Assembly (NCBI GenBank): GCA_947383695.1
Contig: OX376642.1
Coordinates: forward strand, 1,116,001 to 1,180,000
Origin: Actinomycetes bacterium
Lineage (GTDB): Bacteria > Actinomycetota > Actinomycetes > Nanopelagicales > Nanopelagicaceae
Reading direction: 5' to 3'
Length of the DNA stretch: 64,000 bases
Below, piece by piece: positions 9,605 through 37,339 of the stretch. A model generated the notes under the pieces. The model saw nothing but the letters and a program-made list of their open reading frames with translations, was not told the origin of the DNA and ran no database searches. How positions within the stretch are numbered: the first letter of the stretch is position 1; each line of letters begins with the position of its first letter. The position numbers were made by a program, and so were the translations under genes.

Positions 9605-11044
9605 ATGAGCTTCGAATACGCCCCAGCACCTGAATCACGAGCAGTGGTCTCTATCAAACCTAAGTACGGCCACTTCATTGGTGGAAAGTTTGTTGCAGGT
9701 AGCAAGCACTTTCCGACAGTTAACCCTGCAACTGAAGAGGTTCTGTCTCAGATCGCTCTTGCTGGAAAGGCTGAGGTTGATGCAGCGGTAAAGGCTGCTC
9801 GTAAGGCGTACACAACTACCTGGTCAAAGATGTCAGGCAAAGAACGTGGAAAGTATTTGTATCGCATCGCTCGAATCATGCAGGAGCGAGCACGTGAATT
9901 TGCAGTGCTAGAGACTCTCGATAACGGCAAGCCAATCCGCGAATCACGTGACACCGATATTCCATTAGCTGCAGCACACTTTTTCTATCATGCAGGCTGG
10001 GCGGACAAACTTGAGTATGCCGGTCTTGGTACATCTCCAAAACCACTAGGTGTTGCAGGTCAGATTATTCCGTGGAACTTTCCACTTTTGATGTTGGCCT
10101 GGAAGGTTGCACCAGCATTAGCCGCTGGAAATACAGTTGTGTTAAAGCCTGCAGAATCAACGCCGCTTACCGCATTGTTATTTGCAGAGGTGTGCCAACA
10201 GGCTGAACTTCCTGCAGGTGTCGTCAATATTGTCACCGGAGATGGTTCAACGGGTGCCTTGATCGTTAACCACCCAGGAATCGACAAGATTGCATTTACC
10301 GGCTCAACTGAGGTTGGAAAGATTATTGCTCGCGCAGTTGCTCCTACCAAAAAGAGCGTGACCCTTGAACTTGGTGGTAAAGCTGCAAATATCGTCTTTG
10401 ATGATGCACCAATTGATGAAACCGTTGAAGGAATTGTTAACGGAATCTTCTTTAATCAAGGTCATGTGTGCTGTGCTGGTTCACGTCTGTTATTGCAGGA
10501 AAATGTTGCTGAAGAGGTGCTTCATAAGTTGAAGAACCGAATGGAAAAGATCCGTGTTGGCGATCCTATGGATAAGAACACCGATGTTGGCGCGATTAAT
10601 AGCAAGGAGCAGCTTGCAAAGATCACTGAACTTGCTGCTGCTGGTGATGCTGAAGGTGCAGAGCGATGGAGTCCTGCATGTACTTTGCCAGCTAAGGGTT
10701 TCTGGTTTGCTCCAACAATCTTTACCGGTGTAACTCAGGCACATCGCATCGCACGCGAAGAGATCTTTGGTCCTGTTCTTTCAGTTCTAACCTTTAGAAC
10801 ACCACAAGAAGCTATAGAAAAGGCTAATAACACCCCATTTGGCTTGTCTGCTGGCATCTGGAGCGAGAAGGGTTCACGTACCTTGTGGGCATCTCAACAA
10901 CTACGTGCAGGAGTTATCTGGGCTAATACCTTTAACAAGTTTGATCCAACCTCACCATTTGGTGGATATAAGGAATCGGGGTGGGGACGCGAAGGCGGAC
11001 GCCACGGCCTGTCTGCATATTTGAAGGGAGTAAGCCATGAGTAA
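9605..11044 (+). CDS. NAD(P)-dependent aldehyde dehydrogenase
   Basis: 479-aa ALDH superfamily member with all catalytic parts: IPWNFPLLM (catalytic Asn), FTGSTEVGK (cofactor loop), LELGGK (general-base Glu) and GHVCCAGSR (nucleophile Cys). Directly downstream of deoC, so acetaldehyde is the likely substrate, giving acetate. ATG at 9605 is preferred over the GTG at 9593 because GGAGAG stands 4 nt before it. The 3' end overlaps the second, half-length ALDH gene by 8 nt. Confidence 0.92.
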   Translation: MSFEYAPAPESRAVVSIKPKYGHFIGGKFVAGSKHFPTVNPATEEVLSQIALAGKAEVDAAVKAARKAYTTTWSKMSGKERGKYLYRIARIMQERAREFAVLETLDNGKPIRESRDTDIPLAAAHFFYHAGWADKLEYAGLGTSPKPLGVAGQIIPWNFPLLMLAWKVAPALAAGNTVVLKPAESTPLTALLFAEVCQQAELPAGVVNIVTGDGSTGALIVNHPGIDKIAFTGSTEVGKIIARAVAPTKKSVTLELGGKAANIVFDDAPIDETVEGIVNGIFFNQGHVCCAGSRLLLQENVAEEVLHKLKNRMEKIRVGDPMDKNTDVGAINSKEQLAKITELAAAGDAEGAERWSPACTLPAKGFWFAPTIFTGVTQAHRIAREEIFGPVLSVLTFRTPQEAIEKANNTPFGLSAGIWSEKGSRTLWASQQLRAGVIWANTFNKFDPTSPFGGYKESGWGREGGRHGLSAYLKGVSHE

Positions 11045-11879
11045 TCGAATTGATGTGAAGAAGACTTATAAGTTGTACATCAATGGCGCATTTCCACGCA
11101 CTGAATCTGGACGTACCTACGAGGTAAAGAGTGCCAAGGGTGCTTTTATAGCTAACCCTTGTCTTGCATCTCGAAAAGATCTACGTGATGCCGTTGTTGC
11201 AGCACGTGCTGCTCATGCTGGTTGGAACAAAGCAACCGCTTATAACCGCGGACAAATCTTGTATCGCATCGCTGAAATGCTTGAAGGTCGTCGCGCACAA
11301 TTTGTTGACGAGATCATGCAGGTTACAGGTGTAACGAAGGTCAAAGCTGAAAAAGAAGTTACTGACTCAGTTGATCGACTAGTTTGGTATGCAGGCTGGA
11401 CAGATAAGGTCGCATCCCTTGCAGGATCAACTAATCCTGTTGCTGGTCCTTTCTATAACTTTACGATCCCTGAAAGCATGGGAGTTGTTGCAGCGATTGC
11501 TCCTGAAACTCCATCTCTTCTTGGTTTCATCGATGTGGTTGCACCAATCATCACATCAGGAAATACCGTTGTAATTCTGGCAAGTACTAAGGCTCCACTG
11601 TCTGCAATGACCTTTGCTGAAGTCTTAGCAACAAGCGATTTGCCACATGGAGTAATCAATATCTTGACCGGAAAGAAGGAAGAGATTGCGCCATGGATGG
11701 CATCTCACATGGATATTGATGCACTAGATATTTCTGGTCTGCCAGCAAAACTTCATGCCGAGACAAAGGTTGCCGGAGCTGAAAATCTGAAGCGAATTCA
11801 CTCATTCAAATCAGCTGATCCTGGTCGCATCATCGCCTTTATGGAGGCTAAGACAGTGTGGCATCCAATCGGGTTATGA
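11037..11879 (+). CDS. Half-length aldehyde dehydrogenase homologue, catalytically incomplete
   Basis: 280 aa related to the N-terminal (cofactor-binding) half of ALDH enzymes: YINGAFPRTESGRTYEV, the helix-rich Rossmann entry and the AAIAPETPSLLGF segment align with the active enzyme just upstream. The catalytic Asn is missing (PETPS instead of PWNFP), and the chain ends before the Glu and Cys regions. The tail after about residue 215 is unlike ALDH. The frame is clean and intact, and no C-terminal half follows, so it looks like a maintained short protein and not decay. It overlaps the active ALDH gene by 8 nt and converges with the nucleoside hydrolase (6-nt overlap of ends). Confidence 0.75.
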   Translation: MSNRIDVKKTYKLYINGAFPRTESGRTYEVKSAKGAFIANPCLASRKDLRDAVVAARAAHAGWNKATAYNRGQILYRIAEMLEGRRAQFVDEIMQVTGVTKVKAEKEVTDSVDRLVWYAGWTDKVASLAGSTNPVAGPFYNFTIPESMGVVAAIAPETPSLLGFIDVVAPIITSGNTVVILASTKAPLSAMTFAEVLATSDLPHGVINILTGKKEEIAPWMASHMDIDALDISGLPAKLHAETKVAGAENLKRIHSFKSADPGRIIAFMEAKTVWHPIGL

Positions 11880-12818
11880 ATTAACGGTTTTTAACCACAA
11901 TTTCACGACCGCGTCGACATCGAGATCAAGGGCTACCCGGACCTTTGCTGAATCCTCAAGGTCTAGTGGCTCTAACTGCTTTAACCATGCATCACGACGA
12001 TCCACAATAGTTTGACCGCGTGCAGGACCTGCCGATGTATCTACAACAACATCAAACATTTCAGTTGTAAAGAGTTCAGGCTGAATAACAAGGGCAACAG
12101 CGCCATAATCCCCTAGCGATATCGGATCTGTTCGAACTTGTTCCATAAAACCAAGTGCCAAAGATCCTGCAAACTGCGAGGATGGTTTATCTGACTTGCT
12201 CATCTTTGTTGCTTCATCTCGCCCAATTGTCGGACGCATAAAGACATCAAGGCCGTACATAGAAATTGGTACCCCACTTTGGAAAACGATTGCTGCAGCT
12301 TCTGGATCATGCCAGACATTAAATTCGGCGGCAGCGGTTGCATTTCCGGCTGATGCAGATCCACCCATCAATACGATGCGATGAATCTTCTTTGCTGTCT
12401 CTGGAAATGCGCGTAGAAAGAGAGCGATATTAGTAAGCGGAGCAACGGGAACAATTGTCACAGGTTCAGATGATTGTTCAATTAAGTCGCGAAGTAGCTC
12501 GACGGCTGAACGTGGATCAACCTTTCGGTGTGATGGAGCAATTCCAAGATCGCACATTCCATCTTTTCCATGAACATATTCGGCGTACTGGCTCTTTCCT
12601 AATAATGGTCGTACCGCGCCTCGAGCTACAGGAATATCTCCAGCTCCTGCTGCATCCAAAACTTTGAATGTGTTGGCAACAACTTGGTCAACATTTGTAT
12701 TGCCATCTACGCAGGTGATACCTAGAAGGTTGATTTCTGGATGCATCGCTGCAAAGAGAACTGCAAAGGCATCATCAACACCGGTATCTACATCCATAAT
12801 GATTGAAGTTTTGGTCAT
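11874..12818 (-). CDS. Inosine-uridine-type nucleoside hydrolase
   Basis: 314-aa member of the IUNH family, which hydrolyses the N-glycosidic bond to base plus ribose using a Ca ion. The signature DVDTGVDDA (residues 9-17) supplies the metal-binding aspartates; VAPLTNIA and EFNVWHDPEAA are further conserved segments. Near the C-terminus GDYGAVAL stands where many members have HDPxAVA, so the usual catalytic His appears to be absent although the Asp is kept. Divergent ribokinase would phosphorylate the released ribose. Start ATG at 12818 is leaderless (TAGGCT at -13). Confidence 0.88.
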   Translation of the reverse strand: MTKTSIIMDVDTGVDDAFAVLFAAMHPEINLLGITCVDGNTNVDQVVANTFKVLDAAGAGDIPVARGAVRPLLGKSQYAEYVHGKDGMCDLGIAPSHRKVDPRSAVELLRDLIEQSSEPVTIVPVAPLTNIALFLRAFPETAKKIHRIVLMGGSASAGNATAAAEFNVWHDPEAAAIVFQSGVPISMYGLDVFMRPTIGRDEATKMSKSDKPSSQFAGSLALGFMEQVRTDPISLGDYGAVALVIQPELFTTEMFDVVVDTSAGPARGQTIVDRRDAWLKQLEPLDLEDSAKVRVALDLDVDAVVKLWLKTVNS

Positions 12819-12836
12819 AACCGCTAGCCTAGCGTT
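12819..12836. promoter_or_regulatory. 18-nt bidirectional leaderless promoter (nucleoside hydrolase / rbsK)
   Basis: GCTAGCCTAGC fills the centre of an 18-nt gap. It reads TAGCCT at -12 to -7 for rbsK and TAGGCT at -13 to -8 for the nucleoside hydrolase, so one symmetrical element can start two leaderless messages. For rbsK, TTGAAG 16 nt upstream (12803-12808) could be a -35 and lies in the first codons of the hydrolase gene. Confidence 0.6.
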
Positions 12837-13733
12837 ATGAGACCTGCAGTAATAGTTGTCGTTGGCAGCGCAATGATGGATTTAACCGCCTACGCCGATG
12901 TACTTCCAGAGCCAGGTCAAACCCTAGCGGGGCAGCTTTTTACAACTGGTTTTGGTGGCAAAGGTGCTAACCAAGCTGTAATGGCGGCCCACTGTGGAGC
13001 TGAAGTTCATTTCATTGGAAAATTAGGTGATGATGTCTTTGGAAAGGCAATTGCTGACAACTTTGTGAAGGTTGGTATTAATTCACGATTTGTAGAAAAT
13101 AGTTCTACCCCAAATGGTGTGGCCCATATCTGGGTTGATGGCGCTGGAGAAAATAGAATCATCATCATTCCTGGAGCAAACCACGAGATTGAAGTAAACA
13201 AGGCGATAGAAGCCATTAATTCGATTCAGGATTTGGCGATAGTGGTCGCTCAATGCGAAATCAAACAAGAGGTCACCCTTGCAGCTTTCAAGGCGGCCAA
13301 AGCTCGCGGGTGCACAACAATTCTTAATCCCGCCCCTTACCAAGCATTATCAGCTGAACTTCTTGAGCTGACAGATTGGTTAATCCCTAATGAATCTGAG
13401 TTTCGAGAACTTCATGGAACTCTGCCAAGTAATGATGAGATTTTAAAAAGCTTTAGACCGGGCAAAAGCACCATCGTTACATTAGGTAGTGATGGCGCTG
13501 TGTATATAAGCCCGACCGCCGAACTACATCGTGTCAATGCTCCAAAGGTTACAGCGGTGGACACCACGGGTGCTGGAGATGCCTTTGTTGGAAGTTTTGC
13601 GTACGCCTTAGCAAGTGGAAAAGCTCCGATTGATGCTATGAAATTTGGAGTTTCAATCGCATCGCTGAGTGTGACTAGAAAAGGTGCGCAATCCTCTTAT
13701 CCAGATCAAACAGAGATAGCAACGCTTTCGTAA
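12837..13733 (+). CDS. rbsK: Ribokinase
   Basis: 298-aa PfkB-family sugar kinase. GGKGANQA in the N-third and DTTGAGDAF with the catalytic Asp in the C-third are the two PfkB signatures; the MMDL and ALPEPGQTL-like opening fits ribokinase better than fructokinase or adenosine kinase. It would convert ribose freed by the divergent nucleoside hydrolase into ribose-5-phosphate. Its 3' end overlaps the convergent P450 gene by 28 nt. Confidence 0.88.
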   Translation: MRPAVIVVVGSAMMDLTAYADVLPEPGQTLAGQLFTTGFGGKGANQAVMAAHCGAEVHFIGKLGDDVFGKAIADNFVKVGINSRFVENSSTPNGVAHIWVDGAGENRIIIIPGANHEIEVNKAIEAINSIQDLAIVVAQCEIKQEVTLAAFKAAKARGCTTILNPAPYQALSAELLELTDWLIPNESEFRELHGTLPSNDEILKSFRPGKSTIVTLGSDGAVYISPTAELHRVNAPKVTAVDTTGAGDAFVGSFAYALASGKAPIDAMKFGVSIASLSVTRKGAQSSYPDQTEIATLS

Positions 13734-37313: not shown

Positions 37314-37339
37314 ACCGCTGAGTCTATTAGGCTTCATGC
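37314..37339. promoter_or_regulatory. 26-nt divergent leaderless promoter pair (pcrA / PIG-L deacetylase)
   Basis: AGTCTA (37321-37326) reads TAGACT at -13 to -8 for pcrA, and the neighbouring TAGGCT (37328-37333) is at -12 to -7 for the plus-strand ATG at 37340. Two back-to-back -10 elements replace the single shared element seen at 2900 and 12819. Confidence 0.5.

Follow-up and report, generated by a model that had tools for sequence, protein, structure and literature searches.

The 18 nucleotides that separate the divergent start codons of a nucleoside hydrolase gene (NH) and a ribokinase gene (RK) very probably form a bidirectional promoter from which both genes start leaderlessly. For this reading, sequence and comparison provide the geometry of the gap, its conservation, the genome-wide coupling of -10 elements to start codons, preferred gap lengths and a constraint on silent sites. 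The locus lies in the window (the whole 64,000-nt stretch analysed, positions 1,116,001–1,180,000 of the streamlined 1.43-Mb single-contig genome of a freshwater actinobacterium). NH (11874–12818, minus strand; PF01156, 282.7 bits) encodes an inosine-uridine-type nucleoside hydrolase and RK (12837–13733, plus strand) a PfkB-family ribokinase (PF00294), whose named relatives are freshwater actinobacteria including Candidatus Planktophila; both genes are predicted to be leaderless. The preliminary description had the two products acting in sequence, by release and then phosphorylation of ribose. From the protein families this pathway is plausible, but the assignment is soft: RK barely passes the ribokinase cut-off (TIGR02152, 300.2 versus 299.65 bits), and NH, a PF01156 member, reaches no substrate-specific NCBIfam cut-off. 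Each gene appears to be monocistronic, and each runs at its end into a convergent neighbour, NH into an aldehyde dehydrogenase gene (6-bp overlap) and RK into a P450 gene (28 bp). The window also holds a 280-residue aldehyde dehydrogenase (11037–11879) downstream of a full-length one, a shortened copy whose Pfam match spans only positions 11–214 of 461.

The gap itself (12819–12836, sequence AACCGCTAGCCTAGCGTT) runs from the end of the minus-strand NH ATG at 12818 to the RK ATG at 12837. At its centre is a symmetrical core, TAGCCTA (12825–12831; TANNNTA in general form), which is common to both directions. Read rightward it gives TAGCCT (12825–12830, plus strand), 6 nt before the RK ATG at -12 to -7, and read leftward TAGGCT (12831–12826, minus strand), 7 nt before the NH ATG at -13 to -8, exactly as first described; sequence, genome-wide offset and conservation all support these as the -10 elements. 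Within the core, gap positions T7/A13 and A8/T12 pair across the strands, as expected for a symmetrical -10. No in-frame start codon lies upstream of either ATG, and the in-frame stop upstream of RK (TAG) is itself part of the RK -10. Direct reading of the 18 nt on either strand reveals no Shine–Dalgarno string of the GGAG, GAGG or AGGA type.

We propose that the gap acts as a sigma-70-type (actinobacterial housekeeping) promoter, whose TANNNTA core would be bound by RNA polymerase in either orientation. Rightward transcription would use TAGCCT, helped by a -35-like TTGAAG inside NH, and begin on the A of the RK ATG (12837) or right beside it; leftward transcription would use TAGGCT and begin on, or adjacent to, the A of the NH ATG (12818). 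Both mRNAs would thus open with their start codon and be translated leaderlessly, so that a 24-bp unit, two start codons plus the gap, would serve as promoter and as start site for the transcription and translation of both genes. Because the two orientations occupy the same DNA, and in view of work in E. coli, they would be mutually exclusive, with one polymerase on the core at a time; that this exclusion balances the two enzymes or couples them physiologically is hypothetical.

One such sequence is weak evidence, since a -10 on both strands at a spacing of 6 or 7 turns up in 1.1% of random 18-mers (0.4% of shuffles of AACCGCTAGCCTAGCGTT), and the decision falls to the homologues. We collected 32 distinct NH/RK contexts by their 18-nt TANNNTA pattern, and in these the 18 distinct gap sequences, all 18 nt long, keep T7, A8, C10, C11, T12 and A13 invariant while the flanks vary. 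The set is diverse, with NH identity falling to 73% and RK identity to about 64%, and third codon positions over the first 20 NH codons have a mean entropy of 1.02 bits. An unfiltered listing of NH/RK loci finds the core at every divergent locus outside a clade with 23-nt gaps and a sister genus. An RK homologue is present in 42 of the 61 genomes of the genus searched, and all main-clade loci at which NH and RK adjoin divergently have an 18-nt gap with TANNNTA intact. A chance origin of the double -10 is ruled out by this conservation, and the symmetrical -10 first proposed for the two strands is upheld. Strain IMCC19121 (L235), a relative whose genome is complete, has the gap AAGCGATAGCCTAGCGGT. 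Three public metagenome-assembled contigs titled Bifidobacterium breve (L225, L277 and L281), titles that look mislabelled, carry RK relatives of 54–91% identity, the first with the same gap.

The second clade (G014, G034, G009, G046, G056 and G163) has a 23-nt gap, GGAGTTAGCCTATTATCTATTTC in most members, where an NH -10 (TAGGCT) and an RK -10 (TATTAT) overlap by TA only and each lies 6–7 nt from its own start. That both elements hold this distance without the shared core supports a bidirectional promoter. Two genomes of another genus of the family (L143 and L145) have a much longer gap, in which the -10-like sites stand apart from each other. In our protein tree the 18-nt loci form one group (support 86/88) and the 23-nt loci another (100/99), the latter placed beside the long-gap loci. 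Shared -10s may therefore have been reached twice through compaction, on a tree whose root and some supports are weak.

Position-locked -10 elements are found across the genome. Using our own simple gene caller on 464 kb of the source genome, taken as evenly spaced stretches, we observed TANNNT exactly 6 nt before the first possible start in 33% of genes that have a divergent neighbour and 13% of codirectional ones, compared with about 1% when other offsets are taken, and four congeners display the same peak. A peak this sharp indicates that leaderless starts are probably routine in this genome, in line with published reports on actinobacteria at large (PMC3160421, PMC3898074). When a -10-bearing start lies near the longest one, the caller favours it and so finds double -10s more readily; the first-start profile is free of that choice. 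The preliminary description had held that both start codons can only be used leaderlessly. Two leaderless starts are supported as a prediction, but 'only' is too strong from sequence, as a transcript could start inside the opposing gene; the locking of -10s to start codons makes such a start unlikely.

The preliminary description had also pointed to short divergent gaps as worth a search. Five sampled genomes yielded 227 divergent pairs, or 157 non-redundant pairs after merging orthologues, and the 12 families in which each gene has a -10 and fewer than 25 nt separate the two all fall at 18–19 nt (4) or 22–23 nt (8). These are registers d=-1 (4) and d=4 (8), in which the two hexamers share bases; none of the 12 occupies an overlapping register that shares no bases. 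The shared-core pairs have an 18-nt gap (spacing 7/6), though a spacing of 6 is several times commoner than 7; none of the sampled pairs has the exact 17 nt to be expected from the usual 6/6 spacing. Raw pattern counts are weaker proof of recurrence: a loose 24-base pattern gives 171 matches in 101 genomes versus 103 for its reversed control, a mild 1.7-fold enrichment, so the case for recurrence rests on the gene-based count, which is itself small. Exact versions of the pattern with 17- and 19-nt gaps match in 42 and 33 of the 101 congeners, respectively, versus 78 for 18 nt, and neither version matches at NH/RK in any of them. The coupling of leaderless starts at this minimal spacing, initially called striking, is thus no one-off, given that TANNNT 6 nt before a start is common in the genome and the shared-core layout recurs, including within the same window.

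That recurrence is the gap between a BirA-type biotin ligase (GTG start, minus strand) and the acyl-CoA carboxyltransferase AccD (ATG, plus strand) at 2900–2917 (GACTAGTACCGTACGCCT, core TACCGTA). It has the identical 18-nt TANNNTA layout and 7/6 spacing, and differs from NH/RK in that one of its genes starts with GTG. BirA and AccD are divergent neighbours class-wide, but only some relatives have a visible TANNNTA close to the AccD start. Elsewhere in the window (37314–37339), a UvrD-type helicase and a PIG-L deacetylase offer another compact arrangement, diverging across 26 nt that contain two adjacent -10s (AGTCTA and TAGGCT).

The notion that a single element sets both genes finds no support in that form, because the RK direction has a second conserved element inside the NH coding sequence; we found none in the NH direction. 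NH codons 3–5 and 7 are almost frozen at silent sites and read TTGAAGTTTT on the RK strand. Across the 97 invariant residues of the whole gene that have three or more synonymous codons, codon variation is lowest at Thr4, Ser5 and Ile7 (entropy 0, 0.21 and 0.21, against 0.83 for the residue that follows and a mean of 1.62), and all 31 sequences encode Lys3 by AAA. The frozen stretch includes TTGAAG (12803–12808, plus strand; NH codons 4–6), separated from TAGCCT by a 16-nt spacer. Among the named loci with an 18-nt gap only one lacks TTGAAG, and no locus with a 23-nt or other gap has it. Its simplest reading is a probable -35 for RK written into NH, and with it the two directions would not rest on one element alone. 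RK codons 2–10, the expected place for an NH -35, have no such freeze (third-position entropy 1.44 versus 1.52). An alternative that we consider unlikely, though it deserves some weight, is that the frozen codons serve NH translation, through early-codon or mRNA-structure effects, or form an activator or other regulator site. They do sit at the 5′ end of a leaderless message, and leaderless genes in general show weak enrichment of TTG at -36 to -34 (at most 13 of 315). However, RK is leaderless too and has no freeze, the freeze is missing from 23-nt and long-gap relatives, and TTGAAG with a 16-nt spacer fits a -35.

Two further explanations would deny the gap its promoter role altogether. The near-palindrome CGCTAGCCTAGCG could be the operator of a dimeric regulator of nucleoside or ribose use, its likeness to a -10 being incidental; the window copy is indeed perfectly symmetrical over 13 bp around one C, and gap pairs 5/15 and 4/16 are complementary in 14 and 13 of the 18 distinct gaps. 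Against this, pairs 6/14 and 3/17 are complementary in only 6 and 7 of the 18, the palindrome is lost in the 23-nt clade while both -10s are kept, and what other gene pairs have in common is TANNNTA and not the palindrome arms. With arms that do not covary, we rejected an operator as very improbable. As little credit is due to the idea that the mRNAs start upstream, within the opposing genes, and carry leaders, the gap being merely promoter-like: -10s are locked to start codons genome-wide, neither side has a Shine–Dalgarno string, and an upstream NH promoter would fall in the initial RK codons, whose silent sites are the unconstrained ones described above.

A closer competitor, to which we give a little less than an even chance, sees two overlapping and independently tuned promoters (a -35 plus -10 for RK, a bare -10 for NH), whose shared bases are a remnant of compaction that does not couple the genes. 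The silent-site freeze on the RK -35 side only speaks for it, long-gap relatives with separate -10-like sites are consistent with it, and registers that share bases need four rather than six specified bases and so are those most easily reached by compaction. It agrees with the bidirectional promoter on anatomy, however, and differs only on how much the sharing matters to the cell; on shared DNA, simultaneous use of both orientations would in any case be impossible.

Both E. coli and Salmonella are known to have bidirectional promoters with a symmetrical -10 (Warman et al. 2021, as cited in PMC10268837; PMC12825309). The E. coli promoters prefer distances of 18, 10 and 23 bp between transcript starts, 18 most often and with small variations accepted (PMC12825309), and at 18 bp -7T and -11A are reciprocally paired (PMC10268837). 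The predicted distances here are 19 bp in the 18-nt clade and 24 bp in the 23-nt clade, each one base above the canonical 18 and 23. NH/RK resembles these systems in having one -10 read both ways, and the two registers found here, TANNNTA and ANNNTANNNT, come within one base of 18 and 23 bp. NH/RK differs in that both transcripts are predicted to be leaderless, the unit is 24 bp and the distance 19 rather than 18; the portions of the enterobacterial papers used here mention no leaderless mRNAs. In actinobacterial leaderless genes, TANNNT precedes the start by about 12 nt (PMC3160421, PMC3898074), and NH/RK has the same motif, a similar offset (-13/-12) and no Shine–Dalgarno sequence; the sections of these two papers drawn on here describe no -10 common to two leaderless genes. 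A further parallel is M. tuberculosis prpD/Rv1129c, divergent genes whose starts both map to start codons, giving two leaderless mRNAs (PMC3898074, figure legend). That pair is likewise divergent and leaderless (mapped there, predicted here), and the text consulted describes no shared core; closely juxtaposed divergent promoters are called common in the same paper. Our search of the available literature found nothing on leaderless genes in Nanopelagicales or on bidirectional promoters with leaderless mycobacterial genes.

Bidirectional promoters and leaderless genes are both known, and prpD/Rv1129c is an earlier case of divergent leaderless starts; what would be new is the combination of the two, and the novelty is modest. 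A broader proposal, which we hold tentatively and at slightly under even odds, is that genome streamlining in this lineage drives divergent leaderless genes to gaps of 18–19 or 22–23 nt set by -10 symmetry, giving self-contained two-gene promoters of 24–29 bp, and that, where the two directions need unequal strength, the opposing gene encodes a -35 in its silent sites. If the preferred gaps are real, distance alone would predict shared promoters from sequence. The proposal would also mean that abundant freshwater bacteria routinely drive two coding genes from a promoter of nearly the smallest possible size; the evolution of bidirectional promoters could be followed in a natural series, from separate -10s through a shared TA to a shared TANNNTA, and the locus would be a case in which a promoter element constrains the silent sites of a neighbouring gene.

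Two other compact strings emerged from the congeners. One, CATCACAGTAGG.TAGGC..ATG, is conserved with a 17-nt gap in many of them (for example, G014:C1:808279-808301 and G040:C1:509488-509510) and may mark a divergent pair or belong to coding sequence. A 14-bp perfect palindrome, TAGCATATATGCTA, adjoins CAT/ATG in many (for example, G065:C1:265363-265387 and G053:C6:8590-8613) and may be a regulator site.
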